Source of the DNA: a virus
Virus record (IMG/VR): IMGVR_UViG_3300028829_004855
Span: 1-22,062 of that record
Length of the DNA: 22,062 nucleotides
Strand: one strand, 5' to 3'
In this document: in pieces, positions 4,600 to 22,062 of the stretch
How the letters are laid out: each line of letters opens with the position of its first letter
How positions within the stretch are numbered: position 1 is the first letter of the stretch
Translations under genes and position numbers: made by a program
The notes under the pieces: generated by a model
The model's database searches: none
Told to the model about the DNA's origin: nothing
Seen by the model: only the letters and a program-made list of their open reading frames with translations

Positions 4600-4627
4600 T
4601 TTCGGTAAAGTTTATAATATTGTCTTA

Positions 4628-4635: not shown

Positions 4636-4649
4636 TATGTAAATAAACG

Positions 4650-4703
4650 AAACCACTTTATGTAGTGTAGTGTTCGTCTACATATATAAATAGAGTGTGG
4701 TTT
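4650..4703. repeat. Nested inverted repeats between cassette and tail genes
   Basis: The outer arms (4650-4656 and 4697-4703, AAACCAC/GTGGTTT) are 7-bp perfect complements. Inside them a second 7-bp stem (4659-4665 and 4678-4684) has a 12-nt loop. The asymmetric internal side (4685-4696) holds another TATTTATA. In gene sense the outer stem begins 10 nt after the small coiled-coil gene's stop and is followed only by CGTTTATTT. It may be a weak terminator or an RNA-processing structure; confidence is low because stems are short and AT-rich. Confidence 0.35.
4685..4692 (-). promoter_or_regulatory. TATTTATA motif within the 4600-4712 gap
   Basis: A second gene-sense TATTTATA in the gap between the cassette and the sheath gene, 85 nt before the sheath ATG and inside the nested inverted repeat. 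It may be an additional promoter-like element. Confidence 0.3.
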
Positions 4704-4712
4704 TGTGAAAAG

Positions 4713-4964
4713 TTAAGTTATCGGAGTAAATGTTCCTGATTCGATATCAATGGATCCTTTTCCGTATTTCTCTTCAAGAGTTTTAGCAACTTCTACTTCT
4801 AATTTAGTAGTTTGATTATAAAACTCTTCAACAGATGTTTTTCTATTCTTAACTCTTATTTCAAGAAAACCTATCTCTGAAAGCTCTTCTTTTACAGCTC
4901 TTTTTCTATTTCGTAGGGCTTTTAAATCATTTAACTCCTGTTCTGTTAATTTAATTTGTTTCAT
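4713..4964 (-). CDS. Small coiled-coil protein of unknown function
   Basis: This 83-aa protein is almost wholly charged helix: LTEQELNDLKALRNRKRAVKEEL followed by a second helix with TTKLEVEVAKTLEEKYG. It ends in a short polar tail, GKGSIDIESGTFTPIT. The pattern resembles small coiled-coil proteins often seen in T4-like marine phages near the tail genes, but no function is known to me. It is the last gene of the cassette, 8 nt after the SGNH gene and before the 113-nt gap. It has no signal peptide or Cys residue, which argues against a thioether-type radical SAM precursor peptide. It could be a structural or assembly protein rather than part of the modification pathway. Confidence 0.75.
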   Translation of the reverse strand: MKQIKLTEQELNDLKALRNRKRAVKEELSEIGFLEIRVKNRKTSVEEFYNQTTKLEVEVAKTLEEKYGKGSIDIESGTFTPIT

Positions 4965-4972
4965 TTTAATTT

Positions 4973-6178
4973 TTATCTATATAAGTTAATGTAAAGTTTT
5001 AAAAAAGCATCTCTATACCTTTCAGATAAACTATTAAATAAATCATTATGGAGTAATTTTTCTTCATTTAAAGTTAAACTATCTGTAAGAAATAATTCAT
5101 AGGTATTTTTAGGTATGATATTTTCTTTTTGTAAAAAGTCTAAAAAGTCTATCTTTTCTTTATATTTTTTTTCAGAGATATTAAATAATTTATTTTCATC
5201 TACAGTCCCTTGATATAATTTTAGAATATTTGCAATAATTACTCCTGCATCATCCTTAGGGAAATCTATAAAATAGTGCATAAAAAAAGATTCTATTTCA
5301 ACCCTTGTAGTAATTTCGTTATAATCTTCTGTTATACTATTTTTAAATAACTCAACCGGGTTATACCCTTCTTGATAATTATCTGAGATTAATTTTGCTA
5401 AAACATTATTACTTTCAAAAGAATGTACACCATCTAAAAATCTAGATCTATTGCTTGTTAAATAACCTAAATCTATAAAATAGAAATTTAGAACGTTTAT
5501 ACCTTTGTTTATTAAGGGGTATATAATTTGTTTATAACTAAATGTCAAAGGTATAATAACTATAGAAAAATTTAATTTTAACGAAATATTAGATACTATG
5601 TCTTTACACTTTTGAAAAGTATCCGCTAAGTTAGAAAAATTTTCTTCTGTGTACTCATTAGGGGTAATTTCATCTTTTAAATTATTTACCTTTCTTATAT
5701 CATCGTCTCTTAGAATAAAAAACACCTCTCCTTCTACATTTTTAAATTTAGTTTGAAAATCAGAATTTTTTAACCATGCTAACATGTTTGTAGGCCCTGA
5801 TCCGGGGAAACCAAAATTAAATGAATTAAAATCACTACTATATTTTTGAAATAAAAAAGGGAGGGTTTGATTGTCATTTAGACCTTCTCCAAATGTCTGT
5901 GAATCTCCAAAAAATAGAGCAGACTTTTTATTTAAAGAGTTATTTAAAGGAGTACATCTTAACCCGTTCTCATCAAAATTGTATATTGCTTCATAGACTA
6001 GTGCTCCCGGGTATGTTAAACTTTTTTCTGACTTTGTTTTTCTAATACTAGCTTTAGAATTAGGGATTCCTATTGACCCAATACCATCTTCTATAAATTT
6101 TGTATAGTCCTGTGGGTGAGTCCCGGTAGATATAAACTTATTATTCTGAGCGATAAATTCTTTTGTACTCTTACTCAT
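4973..6178 (-). CDS. SGNH/GDSL-hydrolase-like protein
   Basis: The 401-aa protein shows SGNH blocks in order: YNFDENGLRCTP (66-77), which commonly precedes block I; FFGDSQTFGEG (89-99) with nucleophile Ser93; FNFGFPGSGPTNML (120-133) as block II; and FLDGVHSF (247-254) supplying the DxxH pair Asp249/His252. A clear GxND block III is not visible, so oxyanion-hole geometry is uncertain. Known family activity: esterases or acetyl-transferring/removing enzymes on lipids or polysaccharides. Residues from about 270 form a helical C-terminal extension with no family I recognise. Its start shares one base with the A1 radical SAM stop (TAATG), so it is translationally coupled. In this context, O-acetyl editing of a glycan is the simplest guess. 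No signal peptide, so it probably acts in the host cytoplasm. Confidence 0.75.
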   Translation of the reverse strand: MSKSTKEFIAQNNKFISTGTHPQDYTKFIEDGIGSIGIPNSKASIRKTKSEKSLTYPGALVYEAIYNFDENGLRCTPLNNSLNKKSALFFGDSQTFGEGLNDNQTLPFLFQKYSSDFNSFNFGFPGSGPTNMLAWLKNSDFQTKFKNVEGEVFFILRDDDIRKVNNLKDEITPNEYTEENFSNLADTFQKCKDIVSNISLKLNFSIVIIPLTFSYKQIIYPLINKGINVLNFYFIDLGYLTSNRSRFLDGVHSFESNNVLAKLISDNYQEGYNPVELFKNSITEDYNEITTRVEIESFFMHYFIDFPKDDAGVIIANILKLYQGTVDENKLFNISEKKYKEKIDFLDFLQKENIIPKNTYELFLTDSLTLNEEKLLHNDLFNSLSERYRDAFLKLYINLYR

Positions 6179-7458
6179 TACATTGTATATTTAATATTTG
6201 TAATAAAGTCATTAGAGTTTTTAAAGTATGGAAAAGTATCGTCAAATTTTTCTTTTCTAATCTTATCTAACTTATCTGTTATATCTTTACACTTAGCCAT
6301 CTCTTCATACTTAAAATCTTTACTAATACTTCTTTTATAGACTGTATCTAGTTTATTCATTATATCTTCGATAACATAAGAACTAACTCCGGTTTTTTGC
6401 AATTCAGATTTAAAGCCTCTTAATCTCTCTGCAAATTTAACTTTAAACCGGTCTGGTAAAAATACAGTATCGTAATAAGTAGGATAATCGATAGGGCTAA
6501 AGAATAAAGTTCTAGCTCCAATAAATGCCTCTTTATCTATAAAATCTCTTTCTATAAAATCTAAAACCATGTCAAATAAATGAAGATAATTTAAAGTACC
6601 GTATGTAATTGCGTATGCATAATCTGTGTGTTTTACATTTGAATTTTTATAATCAATAACATTTTGATAAAAAAGTTTATCATCATATCCTTTCCTTACA
6701 TATTCACCAATCTTACCTACTCCGTCAATACTAATATATAACTCTAAGTTAGGAAATTTTCCCCAGTATTCAAAGATATGTTTACCCTTAAATGACATGT
6801 TTGAAAAATTAGTAGAGTATCTTATATTTACATCTGTTCTTCCTAACTCTATAAGCCTATCTAGTATTTGATAATGTTCTGGCATCATTAATGGTTCACC
6901 TCCTGCAAAATAAATTTCATCTACACAGTCATAATGTGGTTCTAACATATCCATAAAAGATGCTTTGTCATTTATATTAATTAAAGCCTTTTCTGGGTTC
7001 TGTCCTAACGCTTTTGCATCAGAATACCAAGAAGAGCTTAAACCTAAACCACAACTCCTACATTTAAAATTACAAAAATTAGAAATACGTATATCCCATA
7101 AGTGTAAATTCATTATTTTGAGATTACCGTCACTGTCAGTACTGTCTATATAATCTATTTTATCCCAGTGTTCTTTATTTATTCTCTGTCGATAAGATTT
7201 GTCTCCAGTTTCTTCTAGATGATAACATCTTCTACATGAACTTATTTTTTCATCATTTAACATACCTACTCTTGTACGTTTCATTGTATCATTATTCCAA
7301 ACTTCTTTTAATGTCTGATCATTTATGTTCCCTACAGGTTCATTAGAATTCCATATACAACAAGGGTATGTTTTACCATCAGGCCATGTATGGATTGATA
7401 ACCAGGGTGCTAGACAAAAAGTCTTAGACTCTTTTAATATGTTTTTATCAAACTCCAT
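6178..7458 (-). CDS. Radical SAM protein A1 with N-terminal Twitch domain
   Basis: The 426-aa protein starts with a half-SPASM (Twitch) cysteine set: Cys15 in FCLAPW, Cys33/Cys34 in PCC, and Cys75/Cys78 in SCRRCYHLEE. The radical SAM core follows, with CNFKCRSC (Cys129, 133, 136) binding the SAM-cleaving [4Fe-4S] cluster and AGGEPL (185-190) contacting SAM. SISIDGVGKIGEYVRKG marks a later barrel strand seen in all family-A paralogues here. Known: SPASM/Twitch enzymes use auxiliary clusters, mainly to modify peptides or sugars; the substrate here is unknown. The gene overlaps A2 by 11 nt and is coupled to the SGNH gene by TAATG. The family call is certain; the function is open. Confidence 0.9.
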   Translation of the reverse strand: MEFDKNILKESKTFCLAPWLSIHTWPDGKTYPCCIWNSNEPVGNINDQTLKEVWNNDTMKRTRVGMLNDEKISSCRRCYHLEETGDKSYRQRINKEHWDKIDYIDSTDSDGNLKIMNLHLWDIRISNFCNFKCRSCGLGLSSSWYSDAKALGQNPEKALININDKASFMDMLEPHYDCVDEIYFAGGEPLMMPEHYQILDRLIELGRTDVNIRYSTNFSNMSFKGKHIFEYWGKFPNLELYISIDGVGKIGEYVRKGYDDKLFYQNVIDYKNSNVKHTDYAYAITYGTLNYLHLFDMVLDFIERDFIDKEAFIGARTLFFSPIDYPTYYDTVFLPDRFKVKFAERLRGFKSELQKTGVSSYVIEDIMNKLDTVYKRSISKDFKYEEMAKCKDITDKLDKIRKEKFDDTFPYFKNSNDFITNIKYTM

Positions 7459-8467
7459 GTAGACTGTGTATTATTCTTTTATCGTTGTATGAATCTAGTA
7501 CTTTTATTTCATTCACTAGTTCCTTATAATTAGGATGTGCTTTATCCCATACTGCTTTTTTTATAAACTCTTCCTCTGATAGTACTCCCCAGTTTAATAT
7601 CTTATAATACTGTATGCTAATATCCCTTTGGTTCTTAAATATACTGTTCATAAGTTTATAGAAAGGAACTATTTCTTTATAATTATCATTTTGAATAACA
7701 AATGACAGTATAATATTTTTAACTTGAGTTAAAGAATCTATAAACTCAAGGTTTTTTATTAGAAGATCCCACTTTCCTCCTTTTCTTACGTTATGATAAG
7801 TATCAGCATTTGCTGCATCTATAGAAATTTCAGCCGATTGTATATAAGGTTGAGCTAGTTTCATTTTTTCCCAGTTACGTTTATTCCATAGCATCCCATT
7901 TGTATGAATATGTATATTTTTCATATTAGGGTATTTTAGTTTATCAAACTTAACTAACCATTCAAATAATGCTTCACTATAAAATGGATCACCATATCCG
8001 GACATAGACATAAATTCTAAAGAATCACCATAAGAATTTTCTACATCTGATAGTATCTCTTTAGATTTTTTTGTAATATATTCATCATTTCTTATAAAAT
8101 CTATTCTACAAGACGGACAAGCTAAGTTACAGGCACTATCAAAAACTACTTTCATTGAATTAGGTAACTTCTGTGCGGTCAGTTCTTCAACTAGTTCATC
8201 TGTTTTAAGTTTTACTGGACCTGATGGTCTGTTATTGTTTACTACATCGTTAAGATGAGGACATTTATCTGTTGAGCAGTATTTAAATGAACCATCTAGC
8301 ATTGACTCTCTAGCTGATTTTGCTTTATCACTATTCCAATTATCATGTAAAGAACCATTTGTCTTAATATCTAGAGACATCCATTCATTACAGCACATAT
8401 GTTGACTATTAACGGTTAGTTCCGTGTAGTTAAAAGGGTTAGTACAAATGTAGTTTTTTAAATCCAT
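7448..8467 (-). CDS. Radical SAM protein A2, divergent Twitch-type
   Basis: At 339 residues this is the shortest intact paralogue. The radical SAM motif CNLACPSC (Cys113, 117, 120) is intact. The SAM-contact motif is SGYGDPF (156-162) rather than GGEP, with Asp in place of Glu. The N-terminal cysteines are kept (Cys8, Cys25/Cys26, Cys64, Cys69) but the usual CxxPW becomes CTNPFNY, and the last pair is CSTDKC (CxxxxC) rather than CxxC. The C-terminal region after the barrel is short. SAEISIDAANADTYHNVRKGGKWDLLIKNL aligns with the corresponding segment of the other paralogues (stretch near 215-245). It directly abuts A3 (stop at 8468, ATG at 8467). The changes suggest a different substrate or auxiliary-cluster geometry, not inactivity. 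Confidence 0.88.
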   Translation of the reverse strand: MDLKNYICTNPFNYTELTVNSQHMCCNEWMSLDIKTNGSLHDNWNSDKAKSARESMLDGSFKYCSTDKCPHLNDVVNNNRPSGPVKLKTDELVEELTAQKLPNSMKVVFDSACNLACPSCRIDFIRNDEYITKKSKEILSDVENSYGDSLEFMSMSGYGDPFYSEALFEWLVKFDKLKYPNMKNIHIHTNGMLWNKRNWEKMKLAQPYIQSAEISIDAANADTYHNVRKGGKWDLLIKNLEFIDSLTQVKNIILSFVIQNDNYKEIVPFYKLMNSIFKNQRDISIQYYKILNWGVLSEEEFIKKAVWDKAHPNYKELVNEIKVLDSYNDKRIIHSLHGV

Positions 8468-9667
8468 TTAAAAATAATTTTTCCATTCTGGTAAGTAGTC
8501 AATTATGTTTACTTTTCTACCTCTATCCATAAGTCTGATAAAACTATAAAATCTATTCACATCTTTTTCTGTATGTTCTCTGAATAGCTCTATTTTAAGT
8601 CTTTGAATCTCATCTTCTCTCATATGTTCAATATTTTTTAAAATATATTCTTTCATTTTCTCAGGAATTAAACTTACGTGTAGGTGGTCTGGGTAGTGTA
8701 CATAATTGTGAGAGATTTGAATATCATTATCTAAAGTCCATTTTTTAAAATTGTCCATATTAAATACATTTAACGAACTAACAGTTTGACAAACCTCTAG
8801 TTTAAAAATATCTCTATATTCTAAAATTTTATAAAAATATTTCATAATTACTTCCCAATTAGACGGGTACCTTACGTAATGGTTTCTCTCTTCTAAATCA
8901 TCGATTGAAAGCTGTAATCGAACTCTTCTAAATTTTTTCCATAGTTCTATAAAATGATCTGGCATCTGTGTACAATTAAGACTATAGTGTAAATCTATAT
9001 TCTTACAGCTACCGTCATCAATAAATTTCTGTAAAAAATAACCATGTTCTTTAATCATGGTAGGTTCTCCACCGTTAATCCATACTTCTTGTAAGTCTTT
9101 GCATTTCAAATATAATTCATCGTAAAAATTATAATCTCTAAACCATTCAGTTTTTATCTCATTTTTAAAATAATCTTTTTCAAACTCAGTACCTTTAAGA
9201 AATCCTATATCTTGATGCCACCTATTTGAAGAAAAAGGGTTACAGGTAGTACATTTCAAATTACATACTGTCCCAAGTCTTAATTCAATATAATTATAAT
9301 TTACTTCTTTCAAACTACCATCAGGGTTTGTGTTTGGAAAACACTGTTCTATAAATTTTTCGTACAGTTTATTAGATTCTATTCTTTTTGATTCTACTCC
9401 ACCGTCTTCATACTTAAAACATTTTTGACACACTGCTGGTTTTTGTCCGTTTAACATTTGTTTTCGAACTTCTTTAAATTTTTTAGAATTAGCTATTGAT
9501 TCTAAACTATCTTTAGAGAGAAATAAGTGAGCTCTATCATCATTATCTTGTGCTGCTGTTGATACTCCATCTTTCATATCAGTAACACAGCACGGAGTAA
9601 CTGTACCAATCGGATGAGTTGCTAGGTGTATCCAAGGAAGTACACAGAAGGACTTATCTTTATTCAT
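8468..9667 (-). CDS. Radical SAM protein A3 with N-terminal Twitch domain
   Basis: The 399-aa product has Twitch cysteines Cys8 (FCVLPWIH), Cys26/Cys27 (PCC) and Cys80/Cys83 (CQKC). The radical SAM motif is CNLKCTTC (Cys135, 139, 142), and NGGEP (198-202) follows. RVRLQLSIDDLEERNHYVRY matches the later barrel strand of A1 and A4. The C-terminus ends DRGRKVNIIDYLPEWKNYF, a variant of the terminal segment shared by the array. It overlaps A4 by 8 nt and adjoins A2. No signal peptide or membrane segment is seen, so it is presumably cytoplasmic. The substrate is not predictable from sequence. Confidence 0.9.
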   Translation of the reverse strand: MNKDKSFCVLPWIHLATHPIGTVTPCCVTDMKDGVSTAAQDNDDRAHLFLSKDSLESIANSKKFKEVRKQMLNGQKPAVCQKCFKYEDGGVESKRIESNKLYEKFIEQCFPNTNPDGSLKEVNYNYIELRLGTVCNLKCTTCNPFSSNRWHQDIGFLKGTEFEKDYFKNEIKTEWFRDYNFYDELYLKCKDLQEVWINGGEPTMIKEHGYFLQKFIDDGSCKNIDLHYSLNCTQMPDHFIELWKKFRRVRLQLSIDDLEERNHYVRYPSNWEVIMKYFYKILEYRDIFKLEVCQTVSSLNVFNMDNFKKWTLDNDIQISHNYVHYPDHLHVSLIPEKMKEYILKNIEHMREDEIQRLKIELFREHTEKDVNRFYSFIRLMDRGRKVNIIDYLPEWKNYF

Positions 9668-10934
9668 TAGTTATTGATTTATATATTTTTTCTACTTCTT
9701 CTTTTAACTCTATATCAATAGCTGTTAGAGTATTCCAAAAAGATGTGTTTCTTTTTCTATCATATAGAAAATGTTCTTCAAAAAGTGATGGAATAGCAGA
9801 TTCATGTATTATACCGGTATTTACATACTTTACTAGGCCTTCTAGTTCTAATTTATACTTTTCATCTACGTCTTTGTAAAGTTCTGGTAATTTGTTTTTG
9901 AGACTATCTGGTAAAAATCTTGGGTTTAAGAATAGAGGTTCGTAAACTTTTGCAAACCATATAAAAACTTTTTTATCGTCAGTATTCCCTTCATTAATAA
10001 ACTGTATAAATTTAGGTATTTGAAGTAAACACATCCAGTTTACTGCCATGGATACAGACATTAGTATTTTTTCTTCTCTCCATAGTTCTCTGAACTTATA
10101 GAAATTATATTTAACCTCTTCCCATTTAGCATTCGATCTAACGTATTCAAATGCTTCTTCTATTCCGTCGATACTTAGAGAAAAAGAAACTTTTTTAAAG
10201 TTCGCTATTAGTTTATTAATGAACTCTTCATCATAGAATGTACAGTTAGTAACTATACTTAAATTTACATTTTTAGACCAGCCTTTTTTTATAAACCTAT
10301 TAATTAAGTCGTACCAAGCCTTACTATAAAGTGGTTCCCCACCTAAGCAGTTAAATTTCCTAACATATGGACCCCATTCCTCTATATTCTCAATAAAGTA
10401 GCTTCCCTGACTAGATAACTGTTTATGTGGTAAAGTTGGTATATAATTTTTTCTAACGCTTATTAAATTTTCTTCGTCCGTATAAGTTAGTACCTCTTTA
10501 TGCCAAGTTGAACTCAAGTGAGGAGAACAAATTCTACATTTTAAATTACAAGAATTATTTAATATTAACTGAAAGTCTATTGGGTGTTCTACTTCTTCTA
10601 GTATCGTAGTATGAATGTCCATTTCAGGTAGTTCATCATAGTACCTTTGACGTGAACTAACCATTCCTATTTCTTCATCATCCCAGCATGTAGAACATTC
10701 TTTAGGTCTTTCTCCATCAATAAATTTTTGACGAAGCTTCTTCATATAATCGCTATTGTAAATTTCTTTAACACTAGATTTTTGCATATAGTAGGGATTA
10801 CCGTCTGCGTCTTTTATATTATCTTTAAATATACAACACGGTCTTACTTTACCGTCTGCATCATTTGATAAATGATACCAGGGGTACAGACAAAGGTTTT
10901 TCATATCTGCTATATTAAACTGCTGTTCCACCAA
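9660..10934 (-). CDS. Radical SAM protein A4 with N-terminal Twitch domain
   Basis: The 424-aa protein carries Twitch cysteines Cys15 (LCLYPW), Cys33/Cys34 (RPCC) and Cys80/Cys83 (CSTC), the radical SAM motif CNLKCRIC (Cys129, 133, 136) and LGGEPL (197-202). SFSLSIDGIEEAFEYVRSNAKW corresponds to the conserved later strand region. Two starts are possible: ATG at 10934 (used here), which overlaps the A5 C-terminal fragment by 25 nt, or ATG at 10904 (MKNLCLYPW), which would leave a short gap and give an N-terminus more like A3. It overlaps A3 by 8 nt. It is a useful intact reference for judging what A5 has lost. Confidence 0.9.
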   Translation of the reverse strand: MVEQQFNIADMKNLCLYPWYHLSNDADGKVRPCCIFKDNIKDADGNPYYMQKSSVKEIYNSDYMKKLRQKFIDGERPKECSTCWDDEEIGMVSSRQRYYDELPEMDIHTTILEEVEHPIDFQLILNNSCNLKCRICSPHLSSTWHKEVLTYTDEENLISVRKNYIPTLPHKQLSSQGSYFIENIEEWGPYVRKFNCLGGEPLYSKAWYDLINRFIKKGWSKNVNLSIVTNCTFYDEEFINKLIANFKKVSFSLSIDGIEEAFEYVRSNAKWEEVKYNFYKFRELWREEKILMSVSMAVNWMCLLQIPKFIQFINEGNTDDKKVFIWFAKVYEPLFLNPRFLPDSLKNKLPELYKDVDEKYKLELEGLVKYVNTGIIHESAIPSLFEEHFLYDRKRNTSFWNTLTAIDIELKEEVEKIYKSITNE

Positions 10935-11212
10935 TCGTAAACTTTTTTATTATTATCAAGATAAATCTTATTCAATACTCCTTCATTATTTCTCCACTTA
11001 TCAACTTTCGCTAATCTCTCTTTACCTAATTTTAATCCTTCTTGCCAATCCGGGTATTGTTCGGAGAATACCTGTCTATTTTTTAGGTCTTCAAGACATG
11101 TTATCCAGTAATCATATTTAGGATTGGCTTCTACTTTAGGTTTTATATAATCTAATATGTCATCTATAACTTCATTGTATAGATCTCTGGGTAATACTTG
11201 AGGGCACATCAT
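10910..11212 (-). pseudogene. C-terminal fragment of broken radical SAM protein A5
   Basis: This 100-aa frame has no radical SAM cluster but its content matches the C-terminal segment of the array. CPQVLPRDLYNEVIDDIL parallels NPRFLPDSLKNKLPEL in A4 and LPDRFKVKFAERL in A1, and ERLAKVDKWRNNEGVLNK resembles the terminal RFVDEYDNRRNTNFLG of B2. The frame is open back to 11248 and would add TIKTTFAFDSSI before the ATG, which fits the strand preceding this segment in A4 (VFIWFAKVYEP). It starts 29 nt after the stop of the N-terminal part in another frame. It is best read as the tail of a split gene. It may still be translated by coupling, and whether it complements the N-terminal part is unknown. 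Confidence 0.65.
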
Positions 11213-11241
11213 TATGCTGCTATCAAAAGCAAAAGTAGTTT

Positions 11242-12150
11242 TTATTGTTTATTAAGAAATAAAAAGTCTTTAAAATTAGCAATCCAACTATCCCATTTAA
11301 TCCCGTGTCTTACATATTCAACTATTTCACCTGTTCCGTCTATCGAAGCACACATCTGTACCATTTTAAAGTGTGGTAACATATCTTTTAGGTTCCAATG
11401 CTTATATTTTGATCTAGAAAAATTACTATTATACCTTATCCAAACGTTTTTAGCTAAATCATTATCTATTAAGTACTGCATAACCTCCCAATGTATTTCC
11501 CACATTAAAGGCTCTCCTCCTACCCAGTAAATTTCTTCTATTGTACCGTTTTTAACTGCTTCCCATAATTCTTTTTCAGCTACATCTCTTTGAAAGTTTT
11601 CTATAGCCGGTTTATTTTCTTTTCTAGCCCAAAAATCAGTATTTTCTTCTTGATCGTAATCTCCCATCGCTCTTCTTTCTGCTTCCCAAGAAGAAGATAG
11701 TTGATCCCCACACATTCTACATTTAAAGTTACAAAGATTTTTAATTCTATAATCAAATGATATAGGTTTCATATCAGTATGACCATCGTCTCTAGTCTTC
11801 TCAAACGCTTCATCTATCTTATTTGGAAATAGTGTCTTGTTGAAGTAATCTCTATAGATAGAGACATTAAGTAACTGGTCGTTACATACTTGACACTGGG
11901 GTATCTTTTTACCGGCCATAAGATCTCTTCGAATACCTTTCATATATTCAGAGTTCCAATGATCTTTTAATGTTCCTGGATTATAAGATGAGTCTTTGTC
12001 GGCTTTATCTGAGTCTAGGTACTGTGTAGCCCATTCTGCTTTTTCTCTAGAGGCACAGCACATCCTTCTTTCACTTTGAGGTGAAAGGTAAGTATGAGAC
12101 CAAGGTGCCATACAAAAAGTCTTATTTCCATCGGAGGGTTTTACCTTCAT
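11242..12150 (-). pseudogene. Radical SAM protein A5, N-terminal part (Twitch plus most of barrel), truncated
   Basis: The 302-aa frame has Cys13 (FCMAPWSH), the MCC pair near residue 31, CQVC near 87-90, the radical SAM motif CNFKCRMC and VGGEPLM, so the catalytic motifs are intact. It continues to CASIDGTGEIVEYVRHG and stops at ANFKDFLFLNKQ, where intact paralogues run 100-190 residues further. The continuation lies 29 nt on in another frame but lacks an estimated 35-45 residues that in A4 hold one barrel strand and helix. A deletion with a frameshift is the simplest reading; assembly error is the alternative. It overlaps the SDR-like gene by 29 nt, the largest overlap in the cassette. Confidence 0.7.
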
Positions 12151-12706
12151 GTTCTATTATTTTACTGTCTTCATGGTTAAAATCATAATTCAATAGCTCA
12201 TAACTATCAATATCTTTCAAAAAGTTTATAAGAAGATTAGCTGCTGATTTTCTGTTACCGGTATCATCAATATGTCCTGGATGTATGTTATAAAATTTAA
12301 CTTCAGGGTATTGACTTTTAAAAAATCTATAGTAATAATCTTCATTAAAAGTTTTCTGAGCTCTATAAAAGTAATTTTCATCTAAATAACTTAAAGAAGT
12401 TGTAAGGTTGATAAAATACTTAGGCGCTCTATTTAAACATTTTACCAGGTAGGAATGTCCTATTGTTATACTTACTCCTTCTGTGTTAAACGTTCCTTCT
12501 TCTACATTTACACCTTGGTATTTACTGGCGTTTGCTATAATTAAGTCAAATTTTTTATTATTACAAAAATCTTTAATATTTTCTTTATTATTACAATAGT
12601 CTAGATTTAATTGGCTTTTACTAGCAAAATAAAAATTAAAAGTTGAACTAACTTTCTTTACTTCTTTTATAAATTTACCTTCTCCACCAGTTACAAGAAT
12701 ATCCAT
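12122..12706 (-). CDS. Short-chain dehydrogenase/epimerase-like (SDR) protein
   Basis: The 194-aa protein has SDR landmarks: an N-terminal nucleotide-binding loop ILVTGGEGKF (3-12), DLIIANAS (54-61) in place of the usual NNAG strand, a Ser-containing strand INLTTSLSY (99-107), and the YxxxK catalytic pair Tyr114/Lys118 (YRAQK). IHPGHIDDTG (141-150) is the post-catalytic PG loop. It is shorter than classical SDRs (about 250 residues) but complete in motifs. Known: SDRs oxidise, reduce or epimerise alcohols with NAD(P), including nucleotide sugars. Next to a 2OG oxygenase and radical SAM genes it may supply or finish an oxidised sugar or side chain; the substrate is unknown. It lies 10 nt after the oxygenase gene. 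Confidence 0.7.
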   Translation of the reverse strand: MDILVTGGEGKFIKEVKKVSSTFNFYFASKSQLNLDYCNNKENIKDFCNNKKFDLIIANASKYQGVNVEEGTFNTEGVSITIGHSYLVKCLNRAPKYFINLTTSLSYLDENYFYRAQKTFNEDYYYRFFKSQYPEVKFYNIHPGHIDDTGNRKSAANLLINFLKDIDSYELLNYDFNHEDSKIIEHEGKTLRWK

Positions 12707-12716
12707 ACCTAAAAGT

Positions 12717-13331: not shown

Positions 13332-13332
13332 A

Positions 13333-14958: not shown

Positions 14959-15542
14959 TATATTTTATGTATAAAATTTAAATTACCAGTTATATCTATA
15001 TACTTATCAAAAATTCTTTCTTCAAAAAAATGATCAGCTAGTATATTACCATCTTGAAATACACTGAATCTTAATAGATCTAATTCGGTATAATTTAGGT
15101 TAAAATCGTTCTTTGGAAAATTACCTGCCCCAAATATAATATGAGGAGATTCACTTATACCAAATGTCTTATCTTCTAATGACTCATTTACTACCTCTTC
15201 CTTATTTATAAATACTTTAAAATACTGTTTTGGCTTGTGATCAAACTTTACACTTGTATTTACACCTGTATCTATTATCTTAGGTAATCTATAATATCTT
15301 GGTTTATCTTCGTATGTAATTGTTATTACTGTTTCATTCTTGTACAAATCTAAACCTGTATATCTTGGAACTAAAGCAAATACAGTTTTTTGTTCTATAG
15401 AATTATCCTTTAATATAAAGTCTAAAGTAAACTCAAAACTCTTATCACCACTCAGAAGTAAGTTAGAAGGGTTTTCAGGAAAAGTATCACAGATACTACT
15501 TGGCCAAAATAACCAAGGTTCACCTTTATTTATATTCAGCAT
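14958..15542 (-). CDS. Stand-alone LamG/concanavalin A-like domain protein
   Basis: The 194-aa protein is strand-rich, with the layout of a LamG-type jelly roll: SFEFTLDFI near 35, a YFKVFINKEEV strand pair near 107-117, and IIFGAGNFPKNDFNLNYTELDLLRFSVF towards the end (around 134-161), which matches the late strands of LamG domains. Similar strands occur in the domains inserted in the two GT7 proteins of this cassette. No catalytic glucanase motif, signal peptide or membrane segment is visible, so a binding role (glycan or protein scaffold) is more likely than catalysis. It lies between B2 (17-nt overlap) and B1 (one shared base), which suggests it works with these two related enzymes. The fold call is inferred from pattern only. 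Confidence 0.6.
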   Translation of the reverse strand: MLNINKGEPWLFWPSSICDTFPENPSNLLLSGDKSFEFTLDFILKDNSIEQKTVFALVPRYTGLDLYKNETVITITYEDKPRYYRLPKIIDTGVNTSVKFDHKPKQYFKVFINKEEVVNESLEDKTFGISESPHIIFGAGNFPKNDFNLNYTELDLLRFSVFQDGNILADHFFEERIFDKYIDITGNLNFIHKI

Positions 15543-16899
15543 ATAATTCTTTAAATTGAGGAAATGTTCCTAAAAAGTTAGTATTTCTTCTATTATCATA
15601 CTCATCTACAAACCTTATAAAATCTTTTCTATATTTATCTTGATCGAAATTTGATGTTCCTATTGAATAATCGTATAGTCTTTTAATCTTTTGTATTTCA
15701 ACATTTGAAAATCCGTAATTATCTTTTGTAAATTCCTTAATACCGTAGTATAATGCTTTTTCAGCTGCTTTTAATATTAATTCTTTTTGTTCTGGTGTAA
15801 GTATTTTAACAGATAAATGTGTAGGCCATCTAAGGTACGCTGTATCTAACTGTAATGCGGATACCCAGTATCTTTCTCCATTCGCGTGTTTCTTTTTATA
15901 TTCAAAAACTCTATCTATTAAGTCTGAATAAGAGAATACAGATAAAGCATTATAAGTGGCCATAATATTTATTGTTACTTTTGGTAATTCTGTTAATATT
16001 TTATCTATATTAGTCCAAAACTTTTCATATTTTAAACCAAACCTACTATATTCAGCTTGAGCACCGGTTGCTTCCACTGAAGTAAATACTATAAGTTCTC
16101 TTACCTTGTTATTTTCACATAAATCTTTAGCTATTTCTATAAATCTATCTACTAGTTTATCTGGTACGCCTAAGTTAGTGTTTATCGAAAGAGATAAGTT
16201 AGGGTTAATTGATGGGTTATCTCTAATGTACTCTAAAACTTTCCATACATCTTTGGACATTAAAGGTTCCCCACCGGTCATTCTAAAGGTATGTAAATCT
16301 GGGTATAAATCAGGCCACCATTTCCAAAATGCTTCTACATAAGGATTAAATTCTGATTGTTTATAAGGCATTTGATCTCTTGCTTTTATATCGTCAATAG
16401 AATTAAATTTATGTTCTGTTGGGTATCCCCCATATTTCTCTATTTCTTCTACCCATTTAGATGAATATTGAGGTCCACAGTAAGAGCAAGCAAAATTACA
16501 TGCATTACCGAATGATACTTCTACGTATCTGGGGTTGAAATCTTTCCTCCAGTTACTATCTTTAATTTTATCAAAATCATTTAAAGACCATGGTTCAGCC
16601 GATTTAAATACTCTATCTGAAAATGAGTTTGAATTTTCTTCTATATTCCAACAGTAATTACATTCAGAAGGTTTTTCTCCTTCAAGCATTTGTTTTCTTC
16701 TTTTTTTCTTATGTCTAGTATTATGTAATGCCGATGGGTTACGTTTAAGTTCAGCTAAAGGTATTTTATGAGGAGAAGGGTGGTGACATGAATGAGTCAT
16801 CCCCGTTCCTAAATGTAAAGTAACTTGAGTCCATTTTGCTAAACAGAACCCACATCCTACCTTATCTAATTTCTTTTTTACCTCTGTTGGTGTAATCAT
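15526..16899 (-). CDS. Radical SAM protein B2 (CHHP-type N-terminal Twitch)
   Basis: The 457-aa protein is a close paralogue of B1. It has Cys16 and Cys19 (GCGFCLAKW), Cys38 in SCHHPSPHKIPLAEL (37-51), and Cys80/Cys83 (CNYC). The radical SAM core follows with CNACNF...: the motif itself is CNFACSYC (Cys134, 138, 141), then NPYVEAFWKWW (185-195) and TGGEPLM (208-214). Relative to B1 it lacks the long C-terminal tail and ends soon after YDNRRNTNFLGTFPQF. The extra Cys16 gives GCGFC, a CxxC absent from B1. It starts 4 nt inside the GT7 gene (ATGA-type overlap) and overlaps the LamG-like gene by 17 nt. Subfamily B thus flanks the lectin-like gene and adjoins the glycosyltransferases, making a carbohydrate-linked substrate plausible. 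Confidence 0.9.
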   Translation of the reverse strand: MITPTEVKKKLDKVGCGFCLAKWTQVTLHLGTGMTHSCHHPSPHKIPLAELKRNPSALHNTRHKKKRRKQMLEGEKPSECNYCWNIEENSNSFSDRVFKSAEPWSLNDFDKIKDSNWRKDFNPRYVEVSFGNACNFACSYCGPQYSSKWVEEIEKYGGYPTEHKFNSIDDIKARDQMPYKQSEFNPYVEAFWKWWPDLYPDLHTFRMTGGEPLMSKDVWKVLEYIRDNPSINPNLSLSINTNLGVPDKLVDRFIEIAKDLCENNKVRELIVFTSVEATGAQAEYSRFGLKYEKFWTNIDKILTELPKVTINIMATYNALSVFSYSDLIDRVFEYKKKHANGERYWVSALQLDTAYLRWPTHLSVKILTPEQKELILKAAEKALYYGIKEFTKDNYGFSNVEIQKIKRLYDYSIGTSNFDQDKYRKDFIRFVDEYDNRRNTNFLGTFPQFKELYAEYK

Positions 16900-18317
16900 A
16901 ACTTAATATCTAACATCTTAGCCCAAGGTGTTAATTTAGTTTCTTTTACTAATTCGTATTTTAATTGTTTTATTCCATCTCCTTTGTAATCCCAGCTTCC
17001 TTTTTGCATTTCTAATACATATCTTCTTTCATTTCTTGCTGTTGTTTCTCCTTTTACAAACTTACCATCTACTATTCCTTCATCAGGATGTGGTAAACAT
17101 CTCATTCTACCTTCTACTCTGTGCGGTATTATAGAGTTAGGTACTTGCAGATCTTCTTGTTTAATTTCTGCATTAAATATTTCTATATTATTATCTTCTT
17201 TATTAAGATCAATATCAATGGTTAGACCTTCCATAGGTTTATTATTATGAAGAGATTTAACTTCTTCAGGGCTAAGTGCTCTTTTCCATGCCTGTACTTT
17301 TGCTATATCTCCCTTAAAAAACTTAAAGCTACTATCTTCAGATTCAGATGGTGACATACCTAAGTAAAAATCGTTTGATCCGTAACTTTTTAATTTCCCT
17401 GAGAATCTTAATGGGGAAGGGCTCCCTAACCCTACTTTTGAATCTATCTCTGTACCGTTTAAGTATAGGTGAGCTAGATGTTTTTTATCATCTAACACTG
17501 CTGTTACCCAAGACCATTGTTTATCGTATCTCTTCAACCACATATAGTTATGTTTATTGAAACTATTCCAAAACGTATAAGAAACTGCCCTAGAGTTGTT
17601 AAAAGATAGCCCGTAATCATATCCTGGTAGTCTAAATATAGGATACTCTACATACTTTCTTTTTTCATCCCCTATTAAAAAGACGTTATTTTTATCAGGT
17701 TGTTGGTAACATCTAACTAATGCTGAAATTGTATGTGATCTGGTTGTTAATCCTCTATACTCTTTTTGATAAGGTATTTTAGCATACGAATTTTTTCCAT
17801 TAAAAGATATATACTTTTGATTATTTAATTCTACAGGTAAATAACTATCATTTGTCATACCTTCTAAATGACATCTCCAAAATAGATCATCATCTTCCAT
17901 GCCCCAGTCCCAATAATCATTAGAGTAGCCATTTGTTGCTTCCACTTGTTCTTTTGTAAATAAAACAGCACCTCCAAAATACTCATGATATTTTAATTGA
18001 TAATCCATTTGCTGTATTTTAGTGGCTATGTGTCTAGGAGCATCTGCAGGGTAAGAATAATCAGCACCACCGTCCTCATCAGGAATCATATCAATATCAT
18101 GCCATACTATATAATCACAACCATCTTCAAAAGCATGTTTAGCTCCTATATTTTTAGTTGCACCTCTGTTAAAGAGTTTATCATCTACTTGATGAACAAT
18201 ATATATCTGAAAATCTATACCCTGATTTTTAAGGTACTTACCTATTTTAGGTATAAACTCATTCATATGCAATTCTCTATTTCTATACGGTACGCAAACT
18301 CCTAATTTATGTTTCAT
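16896..18317 (-). CDS. GT7 galactosyltransferase-like protein with inserted LamG domain (GT7a)
   Basis: Residues 1-150 match the beta-1,4-galactosyltransferase (GT7) fold: VPYRNRE (9-15), FNRGATKNIG (49-58), the metal-binding HDID (73-76), EYFGG (112-116) and WGMEDDD (138-144). Residues about 168-355 are a LamG/concanavalin A-like domain: YISFNGKNSYAKIP, WSWVTAVLDDKKHLAHLYLNG and FKFFKGDIAKVQAWKRALS. The GT7 C-terminal segment then resumes (GRMRCLPHPDEG, about 403-414, with His410 where GT7 enzymes place a metal-binding His; the usual Met is Cys). Tyr113 before FGG corresponds to the residue that favours UDP-Gal over UDP-GalNAc in animal enzymes. The LamG module is therefore inserted inside the catalytic domain. 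Family assignment is strong; donor and acceptor are inferred. Confidence 0.85.
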   Translation of the reverse strand: MKHKLGVCVPYRNRELHMNEFIPKIGKYLKNQGIDFQIYIVHQVDDKLFNRGATKNIGAKHAFEDGCDYIVWHDIDMIPDEDGGADYSYPADAPRHIATKIQQMDYQLKYHEYFGGAVLFTKEQVEATNGYSNDYWDWGMEDDDLFWRCHLEGMTNDSYLPVELNNQKYISFNGKNSYAKIPYQKEYRGLTTRSHTISALVRCYQQPDKNNVFLIGDEKRKYVEYPIFRLPGYDYGLSFNNSRAVSYTFWNSFNKHNYMWLKRYDKQWSWVTAVLDDKKHLAHLYLNGTEIDSKVGLGSPSPLRFSGKLKSYGSNDFYLGMSPSESEDSSFKFFKGDIAKVQAWKRALSPEEVKSLHNNKPMEGLTIDIDLNKEDNNIEIFNAEIKQEDLQVPNSIIPHRVEGRMRCLPHPDEGIVDGKFVKGETTARNERRYVLEMQKGSWDYKGDGIKQLKYELVKETKLTPWAKMLDIKL

Positions 18318-19744
18318 TATGTTAATGCATCTATTTTTATATACTTATCTTCTTCTATTTTAATACTACTTCTATACTTACAAGTAGAAAGGCCGTCTTT
18401 ACTGTAATTACTAGACCCTGAGTTTGTAAGTCTATAATATCTCAATTGGTTTTCTCTACTACTCCAATCTTTCCAGTAGCCATCTACGTAACCGCCTTCA
18501 CTGTGTTTTAGTAATTTATATACTCCTTTCCTACGGTAAGGAAATTTTAATCTGGATACCTTTGAGGTTTTCAAGTATTGAATTTTAACATTTTGTATTT
18601 CACCATCATTATAGCCACCAGAAGTATCTAATAACTTATTTTTTAATTTAGAAAAATTACTACTGTCAAAATATGCATACCATCTATCTTTTACAAAATC
18701 GTTTGTTTCGTTTAATGGTTTATTCGCATCACTCATAAATAACTTTCTAACTTCCTCTAAAGAAAGTTCACCGTTTAAAATACCAAAGTTACTTATACTT
18801 CCTTTAAAAAACTTTTGTTTTTTATCTCTAGTTGGGTCTGCTACTCCAAGATATAAGTAGGGTTCCTCTTCATATAACCTTAATGCTCTATTACCCCAGT
18901 ACTTTGTTCCTACTTCTTTACCGTTAATAAAATACTGTACTCTATTTAACTTAGGATTAACATTTATGAAAACTTGTAAAGGAAGATTAGGTATAAAATC
19001 TGATGTAATAGAAACTGGTGTATTATCTTTTAGAAAAAGTTCAAATTTATACCTACTAAAGGAATTAAACGAAAGGTTTAAATCAAGCCCTGGTATACCG
19101 AATACGGCAAACTCGTCTGTAATTTCACTAGGATCACAGTCTATAACATCTGGGAAGAATGTTACTATGTAGGAATACGGTCTAACAGTTCTGTATTTGT
19201 TTTTAATCCTTATAAAAGACTTTTTACCAGAAAAATACATTGCTTTTTTATCTATATTAACTGTTCTATAACTTTCGTTTTCAAGATAAAGATCTAATTC
19301 TCTGCATCTCAATAGAAGATCATCATCTTCAAATCCCCATCCTTTATATCGGTTAGAATATCCGTTTATTAATTGGAAATCTTTTACTGAAAATAGTGTT
19401 ACTCCTCCAAAATAATTACGTTGTATAGATCTGTTGAAATCTCCATCACTTATAAAATGGTTAGCAAGCTGTAAAGGCTTATCGCTATATGTATAATCAC
19501 AATCTACAGGTAACATATCTACATCATGAAAAACTACATAATCACATCCTCTATTTATAGCTTCTAGAAACCCTATATTCAATAACTTACCTCTATTAAA
19601 TTTTTTCTTATCTATTTGATCTACTACAATAATACAGTATTCATACTCTAAACTTTTATTAAGATAGTCTTTTATTTCTTTTAAAAAAAGTTTAAGCTGT
19701 TTTGCCCTATTTCTGTAAGGTACAATAACACCGAGTTTGTGCAT
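18317..19744 (-). CDS. GT7 galactosyltransferase-like protein with inserted LamG-like domain (GT7b)
   Basis: The 475-aa paralogue of GT7a has the same layout. The GT7 half shows VPYRNR (8-13), FNRGKLLNIGF (49-59), FHDVDMLP (72-79), NYFGG (110-114) and WGFEDDD (136-142). A divergent LamG-like domain spans about 168-350 (MYFSGKKSFIRIKN; VQYFINGKEVG; FKGSISNFGILNGELSLEEV). The GT7 C-terminus resumes with GVYKLLKHSEGGYVDG and ends with DGLSTCKYRSS. The metal-site His is kept, with Leu in place of the usual Met. Sequence between the shared blocks is much diverged, so the duplication is old or the acceptors differ. It shares one base with both the 58-aa gene and GT7a, so the two enzymes are probably made together. 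Confidence 0.85.
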   Translation of the reverse strand: MHKLGVIVPYRNRAKQLKLFLKEIKDYLNKSLEYEYCIIVVDQIDKKKFNRGKLLNIGFLEAINRGCDYVVFHDVDMLPVDCDYTYSDKPLQLANHFISDGDFNRSIQRNYFGGVTLFSVKDFQLINGYSNRYKGWGFEDDDLLLRCRELDLYLENESYRTVNIDKKAMYFSGKKSFIRIKNKYRTVRPYSYIVTFFPDVIDCDPSEITDEFAVFGIPGLDLNLSFNSFSRYKFELFLKDNTPVSITSDFIPNLPLQVFINVNPKLNRVQYFINGKEVGTKYWGNRALRLYEEEPYLYLGVADPTRDKKQKFFKGSISNFGILNGELSLEEVRKLFMSDANKPLNETNDFVKDRWYAYFDSSNFSKLKNKLLDTSGGYNDGEIQNVKIQYLKTSKVSRLKFPYRRKGVYKLLKHSEGGYVDGYWKDWSSRENQLRYYRLTNSGSSNYSKDGLSTCKYRSSIKIEEDKYIKIDALT

Positions 19745-19920
19745 TACTCAGTTTCTTCTCCTTTAGCAACTTTCATGTATTCAGATAAGTAGTACTGTGT
19801 TCTATCGCCCCATTCGTCTTTATCTATTTCTTCAAACCATAAACTTAATGCATCTAAAGAATTAGCTATAGATTCTAATGCTTTTACTTGCCTTTCTTCT
19901 AAACTTGTATTTTTACTCAT
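19744..19920 (-). CDS. Small 58-aa acidic helical protein
   Basis: The frame runs from ATG at 19920 to TAA at 19744. It overlaps the upstream glycosyltransferase by 4 nt (ATGA) and shares one base with the downstream GT7b start (TAATG), the same coupling seen through the cassette, which strongly supports translation. The product begins MSKNTSLEERQVKALESIAN, predicted helical, then SLWFEEIDKDEWGDRTQYYL, and ends KVAKGEETE. It has no Cys, no signal peptide and no membrane segment. Function is unknown. It is the smallest intact gene among the modifying enzymes, so a partner or chaperone role, or less likely a modified peptide (it contains Trp and Tyr residues), can be considered. Confidence 0.75.
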   Translation of the reverse strand: MSKNTSLEERQVKALESIANSLDALSLWFEEIDKDEWGDRTQYYLSEYMKVAKGEETE

Positions 19921-20765
19921 ACTAAAACTATTTTATTTGTTAATGACGACCAATTGGAATAGTCCTCATAATTAATATACGAAAATTCTTTTAGTTCTTC
20001 AACTAAATACTCAGGATTCTTTACATCTATTTTCCAATTAGAATCCTTTATAGCATTGTACATAACCTTATATTCATCGGAATATGAATAGTCTTGTTTA
20101 TTCTCTGCTACTTTTTTTATTCTTTCTACACAGGTTTCATCCCATTTAAAATGGTGAACTTGTACAAAGCAATCTTCTATCGGCATTCTCTTAGGGTGTT
20201 CTTTACCCCAGCTATTGGTACCGTCTTGGAAATCAGCATAATGCTGTCCAGGAGTAACCCATTGGTGTCCTTTCATTAAAGTAACTTTGTTAGGACAAGC
20301 ACCGGACATTGGATATCTAAAAAACCCTGCTAATGGAAATTCTTTGTGAATATCCGTGTCTCTCTCAACTTTTGGAAAAGTACCATCTTTACCTATACGG
20401 TCTATGAACCCACCGGTAACAAAGTCATATCCATATCTTTCACATTGTTTAATAATATAGTCGATGTCGTCTGGGTATACTTGTAGTTCGTCATCGTCTG
20501 CTACTATCCACCAATCATTTGGTTTGGTGTTTTTTACTATGTTATATATTTCAGTGACCTTGTTCCAGTTATATTTATCTTCTGTAAATACCATAAAGGG
20601 TTCAATCCCGAGTTCTTCTATCTCCTCGAGTATTCCATCGTCTTTACCTTGTCGGTAAACTGCAACGTGTATTTTATCTACCTTATCCTGGTAGTGTTTT
20701 AACATATGAGGAAGGATGTGTGTATTCTCTCCTACTACGGTAACTAAATTAAGTTTACTAGCCAT
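19917..20765 (-). CDS. Glycosyltransferase, GT2/GT92-like (Glyco_tranf_2_4 type)
   Basis: The 282-aa protein has a GT-A nucleotide-binding start (LVTVVGENTHILPHMLKHY, residues 7-25). The metal-binding strand is WWIVADDDELQVYP (85-98), with Asp90-Asp92 as the DxD equivalent. GQHYADF (173-179) and QVHHFKWD (202-209) form the C-terminal His-containing motif typical of the glycosyltransferase 2_4/GT92-like group. Known: such enzymes transfer sugars to glycans or glycolipids in the cytoplasm. It overlaps the SGNH-like gene by 22 nt and the 58-aa gene by 4 nt. The family differs clearly from the two GT7 enzymes, so at least two distinct linkages may be formed. Donor sugar is not predictable. Confidence 0.8.
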   Translation of the reverse strand: MASKLNLVTVVGENTHILPHMLKHYQDKVDKIHVAVYRQGKDDGILEEIEELGIEPFMVFTEDKYNWNKVTEIYNIVKNTKPNDWWIVADDDELQVYPDDIDYIIKQCERYGYDFVTGGFIDRIGKDGTFPKVERDTDIHKEFPLAGFFRYPMSGACPNKVTLMKGHQWVTPGQHYADFQDGTNSWGKEHPKRMPIEDCFVQVHHFKWDETCVERIKKVAENKQDYSYSDEYKVMYNAIKDSNWKIDVKNPEYLVEELKEFSYINYEDYSNWSSLTNKIVLV

Positions 20766-21418
20766 TCTTTATTCTCTATTCTATTAATTATATAGTTTGC
20801 AAATTGTTTATTTCCTTTCCAGCTAAAATGTTGGTCTTTAATTTCGTTATTAGTTGCTTCAAAAATTGTTTCATACTTATTATTACCTAACCATTTTTCA
20901 GATCCTACTGGATAATCATTTTTCCATTCATAGTGACTCCAAAATAAAGTGTTAATTCCCCTATTTTTTAATTCATATGCTAAATCCTTAATTAAATCAA
21001 TATAAAAATTTTCCCAAATTTTTTCATAAGGTCTTACTTGATTGTCTATAAAAGATGTGACTATTTGTTTTTCCTCTTCATTATGCCATTGTTCAAAATC
21101 TCTTAGTCTATAGGCACTTATACTGCTAATATTTTTTTTATTTCTACTAATAGATAAGGTAGATTTTACATCGGAATCACTTATAATTACTATATCTCCT
21201 TTTTTTATATTTTTTAATGCTCTTATAAAGTTAACTATAATGTACATAGTAGCACCCATCTTATAAAAAGGTTTTTCTTCTATCATATTAAAGTAATCAG
21301 ATACGATTTCCGTCCAAAGTTTATCTTCGGGTTTTTTCCATTGGTAGTAAGGTTGTTCTGGTCTACATCCGGCACCCCAAGTAAAACAATCTCCAAAAAA
21401 CCAAATTTTATTCTGCAT
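20744..21418 (-). CDS. SGNH-hydrolase-like protein with Cys in the nucleophile position
   Basis: The 224-aa protein opens with WFFGDCFTWGAG (6-17), an SGNH block I in which the expected Ser is Cys11 (codon TGT in gene sense). IVIISDSDV (76-84) is a central strand, and DQHFSWKGN (195-203) gives the C-terminal Asp/His block (Asp195, His197, spaced DxH rather than DxxH). The remainder has the size of a single SGNH domain, with no signal peptide. Family knowledge predicts ester hydrolysis or acyl transfer; a Cys nucleophile could act as a thiol acyltransferase or the site could be inactive. It overlaps both neighbours (11 and 22 nt). A second SGNH protein with normal Ser ends the cassette at 4973-6178. 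Confidence 0.7.
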   Translation of the reverse strand: MQNKIWFFGDCFTWGAGCRPEQPYYQWKKPEDKLWTEIVSDYFNMIEEKPFYKMGATMYIIVNFIRALKNIKKGDIVIISDSDVKSTLSISRNKKNISSISAYRLRDFEQWHNEEEKQIVTSFIDNQVRPYEKIWENFYIDLIKDLAYELKNRGINTLFWSHYEWKNDYPVGSEKWLGNNKYETIFEATNNEIKDQHFSWKGNKQFANYIINRIENKEWLVNLI

Positions 21419-22062
21419 GTCTTAATATTGTTAATCCTGTTGAACTCGGTTTTGTATCTAATATACCTTCATTAAAGAAATCAAATCTTTGCCATTCATC
21501 TGGTATTTCTTCTATAAACTTGGAAGGTCCTTCAGTAAAGCTATAATGGTCTTTTATATCTTCTGTTACTATATAACTATCTTCATAATTTTTATCAGTA
21601 TCATGTATTGATATAATTCCGTTTTTAGATAGTAGTTTTGAATATTGATTAAAATCTCTCTTTATGTCTTTGTATGTATGACCAGCATCTATATGTAGAT
21701 AATCAATTTTAATATCTTCTTTTACGAAAAAGTTCTTATATGCTTTTTCAGTAGTTTCATTTATAACTCTAGGATAAAAAGTTTTTCTAAGAAAACTATC
21801 TTCTTCTAACCAATCTACATTTCCTCCTATCTTGTTAGCTGCATCAACTACATATGTTACTCCTATATCACCCCAATTGTAGTCTCTATCTCCTTCAAAT
21901 ATACCTGTATCGTATAAATCTACTCTTGCCTGGGTCATGATACGGGGTATAAAACCTCCTCCTGATCCTAGACATACACAAATCTTAGCTCTCATCAACT
22001 GTATAATAGAGTATATAAGTAACCCGTCTCCTAAATGCTCGTCAGTAGCACCATGAGTCCAT
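21408..22062 (-). CDS. Class I SAM-dependent methyltransferase, N-terminus beyond right edge
   Basis: The frame is open to the right edge of the window. A start at TTG 21998 or ATG 21995 is possible, but the codons upstream read GATDEHLGDGLLIYSIIQL, clearly protein-like and leading directly into the first beta strand (AKICVCLGSGGGF), so the true start is probably outside. LGSGGGF is the SAM-binding glycine loop; DYLHIDAGHTYKDIKRDF and IISIHDT match the Methyltransf_24 group, in which IDxxHxY and HD contribute to metal or substrate binding. Members often methylate sugars, antibiotics or hydroxyls. It is the first visible gene of the cassette and overlaps the SGNH-like gene by 11 nt. Sugar O-methylation fits the context but is inference. 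Confidence 0.8.
   Translation of the reverse strand, partial: WTHGATDEHLGDGLLIYSIIQLMRAKICVCLGSGGGFIPRIMTQARVDLYDTGIFEGDRDYNWGDIGVTYVVDAANKIGGNVDWLEEDSFLRKTFYPRVINETTEKAYKNFFVKEDIKIDYLHIDAGHTYKDIKRDFNQYSKLLSKNGIISIHDTDKNYEDSYIVTEDIKDHYSFTEGPSKFIEEIPDEWQRFDFFNEGILDTKPSSTGLTILRHAE

Follow-up and report, generated by a model that had tools for sequence, protein, structure and literature searches.

A hypervariable host-recognition island has been described in the structural region of T4-like marine pelagimyophages (mSystems 2020, PMC7029224). It contains tail fibres, glycosyltransferases and added radical S-adenosylmethionine (SAM) cassettes, and was interpreted as a system for modifying the host O-chain (PMC7029224). 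In cyanomyoviruses, the hyperplastic region between g15 and g18 is a variable insertion that directly precedes the sheath gene, g18 (Millard et al., 2009, as reviewed in PMC2984593). Phage-encoded transferases that act on capsid or tail proteins are known from mycobacteriophages (Freeman et al., 2023, as cited in PMC12619734), and Moraphages, large aquatic phages predicted to infect Flavobacteriia, have four core glycosyltransferases (PMC12619734). Bacterial O-antigen and capsule clusters of the Wzx/Wzy type combine nucleotide-sugar enzymes and transferases in one cluster. Here, we describe a gene block with likenesses to each of these systems, located in IMG/VR record IMGVR_UViG_3300028829_004855, a viral contig of 22,062 bases analyzed in its entirety (the window). 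The block occupies positions 4713-22061 next to the tail genes and encodes radical SAM enzymes, glycosyltransferases and other modifying enzymes. It is only a fragment of a larger locus. Like the pelagimyophage cluster, that locus brings tail fibres, glycosyltransferases and radical SAM cassettes together in one variable island, and like the cyanomyovirus region it is inserted directly before the sheath gene.

The locus differs from each of these systems. The pelagimyophage cluster was described between VrlC and gp14 and mainly encodes GT8-type transferases (PMC7029224). The present locus ends at the sheath gene and contains a pair of family 7 glycosyltransferases with LamG domains (GT7-LamG), an N-Twitch radical SAM core and a collinear radical SAM array. 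As summarized in PMC2984593, the cyanomyovirus region mostly consists of host carbon and electron-transport genes rather than glycan enzymes. For the mycobacteriophage system, the citing text describes neither radical SAM arrays nor sugar-pathway cargo (PMC12619734), and virion glycosylation is a prediction for the present locus. The description of the Moraphages, with which the comparison was made, mentions no radical SAM or GT7-LamG locus (PMC12619734). Unlike Wzx/Wzy-type clusters, the locus has no membrane flippase, polymerase or initiating transferase. The original prediction, made from the letters of the window, had considered the gene combination undescribed. This was too broad, since glycosyltransferases together with radical SAM cassettes were already reported in pelagimyophages (PMC7029224). 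The novelty lies in the conserved GT7-LamG/N-Twitch core and the collinear arrays, of which no description was found in the open-licence literature.

We interpret the block as part of a late-expressed, cytosolic glycan-assembly locus that glycosylates tail fibres or other virion proteins and uses radical SAM enzymes for sugar tailoring, and assign this reading a probability of roughly 50%. The conserved core, consisting of a GT2-like glycosyltransferase, the two GT7-LamG enzymes, a methyltransferase, a small protein (F3) and one radical SAM enzyme (rS7), would build a short glycan. A variable slot would supply tailoring enzymes swapped between phages: some carry N-Twitch radical SAM arrays, an oxygenase and a short-chain dehydrogenase/reductase (SDR), others pathways for nonulosonates or amino sugars. 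A virion protein from the same late region would be the likeliest acceptor, in the first place the S74 tail fibre and two small proteins encoded upstream, and the tail surface would carry a variable sugar coat. We infer the late timing, the acceptor, and the action of the radical SAM enzymes on sugars rather than on a protein backbone. A more specific version is offered tentatively: up to eight N-Twitch radical SAM enzymes, encoded in ordered arrays, would tailor the fibre sugars within a cytosolic assembly line, and near-identical tails would obtain different coats by cassette swap. If the general reading holds, aquatic T4-like phages would use enzymes of their own to produce glycoprotein tails of unusual chemistry, and the N-Twitch radical SAM family would gain its first functional setting and become a source of new sugar-modifying enzymes. 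Phage-host recognition or shielding would also gain a new dimension, in which the coat varies as cassettes are exchanged while the neighbouring tail stays conserved. The two GT7-LamG enzymes, the GT2-like enzyme, rS7 and the adjacent fibre form a small testable core set.

A search of IMG/VR with the sheath, the radical SAM gene rS1 and the first GT7-LamG gene (GT7a) retrieved about 180 loci. The 80 loci retrieved with one of the window's GT7-LamG genes are hereafter called GT7 loci; since related phages do not provide independent samples, counts among these loci overstate the evidence to an unknown degree. N-Twitch radical SAM genes were present in 77 of the 80 GT7 loci, the GT2-like gene in 74, the methyltransferase gene in 65 and F3 in 61. 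The recurrent gene order is S74 tail fibre, F6, F7, F5 (DUF6734), methyltransferase, GT2-like, F3, GT7, GT7, rS7, LamG0, rS6, variable slot, p83, sheath, tube and hub. Thus, the locus is located between the S74 fibre genes and p83-sheath, with two small proteins (F6 and F7) directly following the fibres, and the window block represents one part of a locus that many uncultured T4-like phages of aquatic origin have in common. The order of radical SAM subtypes is also kept (rS3 before rS1 in 14/14 cases, rS5 before rS3 in 11/11, and rS3 before rS2 in 10/10). Seven records of 101-287 kb each contain a gp23-type capsid gene; in these, 11 of 12 N_Twi matches over the cut-off lie within 10 kb of the GT7 genes. 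At least five radical SAM genes are found in 19/80 GT7 loci, so that for this lineage the earlier statement that phages seldom carry so many modifying enzymes does not hold. Independently scattered genes had been named beforehand as the finding that would count against a joint system; co-occurrence and order instead held across the 80 GT7 loci.

These results bear on the possibility that the block is hypervariable cargo without a joint pathway, in which a recombination junction next to the sheath has gathered accessory genes that are unrelated to one another. Slot content already differs between phages with approximately 93% sheath identity, and one radical SAM gene is broken in the window and another in a relative, as such an accumulation would predict. 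However, the core and the radical SAM subtype order are fixed, the gaps are short or the genes overlap, and the core persists down to approximately 55% GT7 identity. We consider this explanation improbable.

In relatives, the slot before p83 contains genes for NeuB, a HAD/NTP-transferase fusion, a 2-hydroxyacid dehydrogenase, a uridine diphosphate-sugar dehydrogenase, a DegT aminotransferase or an epimerase. These genes replace or adjoin the radical SAM genes, and the GT7 core is retained. Because nucleotide-sugar genes occupy the same slot, the slot is tied to glycan synthesis and, judged from gene content, probably serves glycan tailoring, which is in line with the glycan role proposed in the original prediction. 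It further suggests that the radical SAM enzymes may perform tailoring comparable to that of the sugar-pathway genes. Five loci carry a NeuB-type nonulosonic acid pathway, the HAD/NTP-transferase fusion and the hydroxyacid dehydrogenase upstream of the sheath.

Most SPASM/Twitch radical SAM enzymes modify peptides. The N-Twitch enzymes might therefore modify virion proteins directly, by epimerization, cross-linking or C-H modification, with the glycosyltransferases adding sugars at the modified sites. The AlphaFold2 model of rS7, whose cysteines are invariant across orthologues, is confident (predicted local distance difference test score, pLDDT, 92.9). Its structural neighbours include the peptide enzymes SkfB, anSME and SuiB, as direct protein modification would lead one to expect, but the sugar and nucleotide enzymes BlsE, DesII, AprD4 and viperin are tied with them. 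An assignment of rS7 to the sugar or peptide type by predicted fold was attempted and stayed undecided, since both kinds score equally; the fold thus does not settle the substrate. The interchange of radical SAM arrays and sugar-pathway genes in one slot fits sugar tailoring better. Direct modification of virion proteins appears unlikely on this balance.

Transmembrane stretches were sought by hydropathy scan in 950 distinct cassette proteins, with the E. coli O16/colanic region as control. They were detected in 5/950 cassette proteins, compared with 4/16 proteins in the control region, where the scan flagged wbbH, rfbX, wzxC and wcaJ (polymerase, both flippases and initiating transferase). 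Neither a flippase or polymerase nor an initiating lipid-phosphate transferase or ligase was found among the 950 cassette proteins. Because so few of them have a transmembrane stretch while the same scan flags such proteins in the control, the usual machinery for surface-polysaccharide export or lipid-linking appears to be missing from the cassettes. This weighs on a different explanation, that the enzymes remodel the host O-antigen or capsule during infection and thereby block superinfection or the sticking of progeny to debris. Nucleotide-sugar genes of the lipopolysaccharide/capsule kind do occur in the cassettes, and the published interpretation of the similar pelagimyophage island points the same way (PMC7029224). 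The missing export genes, and the position of the block in a virion-gene region with late-type elements, speak against host-surface remodelling, which we regard as rather unlikely.

The octamer TATTTATA occurs at 11.0 copies per kb in the gaps upstream of virion genes, compared with 0.3 for its reverse complement and approximately 0.1 inside genes. Across related loci its strand bias is about 36-fold, and it is mostly located 22-46 nt before the start codon. Only its position and strand bias exceed chance expectation; its count over the whole window does not. Read as its reverse complement, TATTTATA corresponds to TATAAATA, the late promoter of T4. In the window, sense-strand copies precede the tail genes, while a single one occurs inside the block, within coding sequence. 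In relatives, TATTTATA is absent from the radical SAM array gaps and the F7-F5 gap and precedes fibre genes; in the largest phages it also precedes the methyltransferase gene. The octamer looks like a lineage-specific late promoter element. Because it precedes virion genes and is nearly absent inside the block, its distribution suggests that the cassette may be read through from the fibre genes and co-expressed with them late. A conserved hairpin was considered for the gap between p83 and the sheath gene. The window copy folds better than shuffles (z -3.8), but the alignment gives no consensus structure, and hence no claim is made.

The location among tail genes also speaks against the idea that the locus serves to glycosylate the phage DNA. 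Phage glycosyltransferases often target hypermodified bases, as noted in work cited in PMC12619734. However, no base-hydroxylating or thymidylate-synthase-like gene was seen in the cassettes, and modification of DNA is very improbable here.

The small number of membrane proteins, the late-promoter-like element and the upstream S74 fibre agree with a virion or tail-fibre target, as originally predicted. Several observations weigh against virion glycosylation. Neither an acceptor motif nor a product can be seen. In the largest phages, another gene takes the place of the two small upstream proteins, which thus are not obligate acceptors. The equal resemblance of the rS7 model to peptide-modifying and sugar-modifying enzymes gives sugar tailoring no preference, and a lack of membrane spans does not prevent transferases from acting on host lipid-linked precursors. 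The Ser/Thr richness of the fibres was rejected as evidence of glycosylation, as the fibres of a cassette-free relative are equally rich.

By sheath identity, the closest cultured relatives are Immutovirus (67%) and Microcystis phage Mel-JY01 (47%). Both are without the cassette; in them, the fibre or PhoH region is joined directly to p83-sheath. No GT7 gene was found in the complete Immutovirus genome, and GT7-LamG had no match among 50,697 phage records, in which radical SAM relatives are remote and found in Vibrio phages. F6 and F7 had no match in cultured phages. No cultured phage is known to carry the cassette. One of the Vibrio phages, the KVP40-like K566, has three radical SAM genes in a small cluster, with neighbours of unknown function. 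The small protein p83 is a boundary gene rather than cassette cargo, because it is also present in the cultured relatives that do not have the cassette. It diverges far faster than the sheath (approximately 55% versus 93% identity in the nearest relatives) and is possibly a host-interaction or recombination-junction gene.

All real genes in the window, including all genes of 4713-22061, are on the minus strand (Table 1). The low end of the window contains the tail genes, namely a gene in the tape-measure position and genes for a baseplate-hub-like protein, the tube and the sheath, and profile matches support the sheath and tube identities. From 4713 to the far end, the window is filled with tightly packed genes, the last of which, the methyltransferase gene, runs off the contig. 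The longest intergenic gap is 29 nt (11213-11241), provided that the conserved 58-aa open reading frame at 19744-19920 (F3) is counted. These results bear out the co-oriented block, its gaps of at most 29 nt and its position next to sheath and tube genes, as first described.

The annotation of individual genes was partly retained. The methyltransferase call is solid. Seven radical SAM genes, one of them broken, were confirmed, each with a CX3CX2C motif and four N-terminal Twitch cysteines. Six pass the curated cut-off of the N_Twi_rSAM family (NF033640; 170 bits) with 279-358 bits, and rS2 falls below it. Among the three proposed glycosyltransferases, the two GT7 genes are firm (Glyco_transf_7N, 69-76 bits; cut-off 27), with DxD, FGG and WG.EDDD motifs intact and a GT7 domain near the solved beta4GalT1 and beta4GalT7 (profile match, E 5e-33). 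They are assigned to glycosyltransferase family 7 as beta4GalT-like enzymes, and galactosyl transfer is predicted. The third, GT2-like, is just below its cut-off, although conserved. Three LamG-like domains had been proposed, but only that in GT7a is significant (51.7 bits); GT7b has a sub-threshold match (17.2 bits). The third, LamG0, had no sequence match to family profiles and no homology to the LamG domains of the GT7 genes by profile comparison, and is LNS/LG-like by predicted fold only. The two SGNH calls depend on short motifs; in the SGNH1 family DG.H is invariant, but the nucleophile Ser is Ala in 5/8 homologues. The SDR and 2-oxoglutarate (2OG)/Fe(II) oxygenase Pfam matches are both sub-threshold (E about 0.05), whereas the HxD...H triad and 2OG-binding Arg of the oxygenase (H132, D134, H183 and R193) are invariant in five homologues. 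PDB profile searches with the oxygenase, SGNH1 and LamG0 returned nothing useful.

Table 1. Predicted genes and sequence elements of the 22,062-base window
Feature	Position	Strand	Evidence and remarks
Gene in tape-measure position, partial	3-1241	-	
Baseplate-hub-like protein	low end of window, among tail genes	-	phrog_150
TATTTATA, sense-strand copies	1255-1262, 2290-2297, 2875-2882, 4628-4635, 4685-4692	-	precede tape-measure, hub, tube and sheath (two) genes
Tail sheath (context)	2896-4599	-	phrog_23, 255 bits
Cassette-sheath junction	4600-4712	-	two TATTTATA, 5' ends 4692 and 4635, foldable segment between; likely late promoters
p83, small conserved protein abutting sheath gene	4713-4964	-	sheath next in 90/93 occurrences
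SGNH1, SGNH-like protein, activity uncertain	4973-6178	-	short motifs; no Pfam match
rS1, N-Twitch radical SAM enzyme	6178-7458	-	NF033640 358 bits; motifs
rS2, divergent radical SAM protein with N-terminal Twitch-like cysteines	7448-8467	-	PF04055 35.2 bits; NF033640 64 bits, below cut-off
rS3, N-Twitch radical SAM enzyme	8468-9667	-	NF033640 346 bits
rS4, N-Twitch radical SAM enzyme	9660-10934	-	NF033640 296 bits
rS5, broken N-Twitch radical SAM gene	10910-12150	-	N part 11242-12150, C part 10910-11212; intact homologues exist
SDR-like protein, weak call	12122-12706	-	RmlD_sub_bind E 0.059; homologues in related loci
2OG/Fe(II) oxygenase-like protein	12717-13331	-	H132-x-D134...H183 and R193
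rS6, N-Twitch radical SAM enzyme	13333-14958	-	NF033640 316 bits
LamG0, stand-alone LNS/LG-fold protein (predicted)	14958-15542	-	AlphaFold2 pLDDT 87; Foldseek top match neurexin LNS/LG, E 8e-7
rS7, core N-Twitch radical SAM enzyme after GT7 pair	15526-16899	-	NF033640 352 bits
GT7a-LamG, beta-1,4-galactosyltransferase-like enzyme, C-terminal LamG domain	16896-18317	-	profile matches
GT7b, second GT7 enzyme, weak LamG match	18317-19744	-	profile matches, motifs
F3, 58-aa conserved small protein	19744-19920	-	homologues at same place in 61/80 GT7 loci
GT2-like glycosyltransferase	19917-20765	-	PF13704 26.4 bits, just under cut-off 27.5; conserved in 74/80 GT7 loci
SGNH2, SGNH-like motif FGDC	20744-21418	-	rare in relatives
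Methyltransferase, cut by contig end	21408-22061	-	PF13578, solid match; in 65/80 GT7 loci

A RiPP cluster with a radical SAM maturase would be expected to encode a precursor peptide whose leader is conserved and whose core varies. F3 is the only small open reading frame of the cassette. It sits beside the transferases, and its middle is conserved while its acidic end is variable. The protein looks helical, and adaptor, carrier or chaperone are possible roles for this product encoded between the GT2-like and GT7 genes.

The same core, together with sugar genes, was found in VHCC01000006.1, a contig binned in a Pelagibacterales metagenome-assembled genome. This contig probably comes from a phage and was binned there, and it is possibly a clue to the host. 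N_Twi_rSAM exceeds its cut-off in 1/142 genomes of that class, and the match is on this same contig. An assignment of the host from cellular genomes was rejected, as the sole genome match carries the same phage locus.

The two pieces of rS5 align to residues 1-302 (11242-12150) and 349-448 (10910-11212) of intact homologues. Because the pieces match separated residues, the alignment implies an internal loss of approximately 106 nt together with the reading frame, relative to these homologues. A second decayed N-Twitch radical SAM gene, with seven internal stops, lies at 10786-11994 of another record (G013, locus L121), and decay of array members thus recurs.

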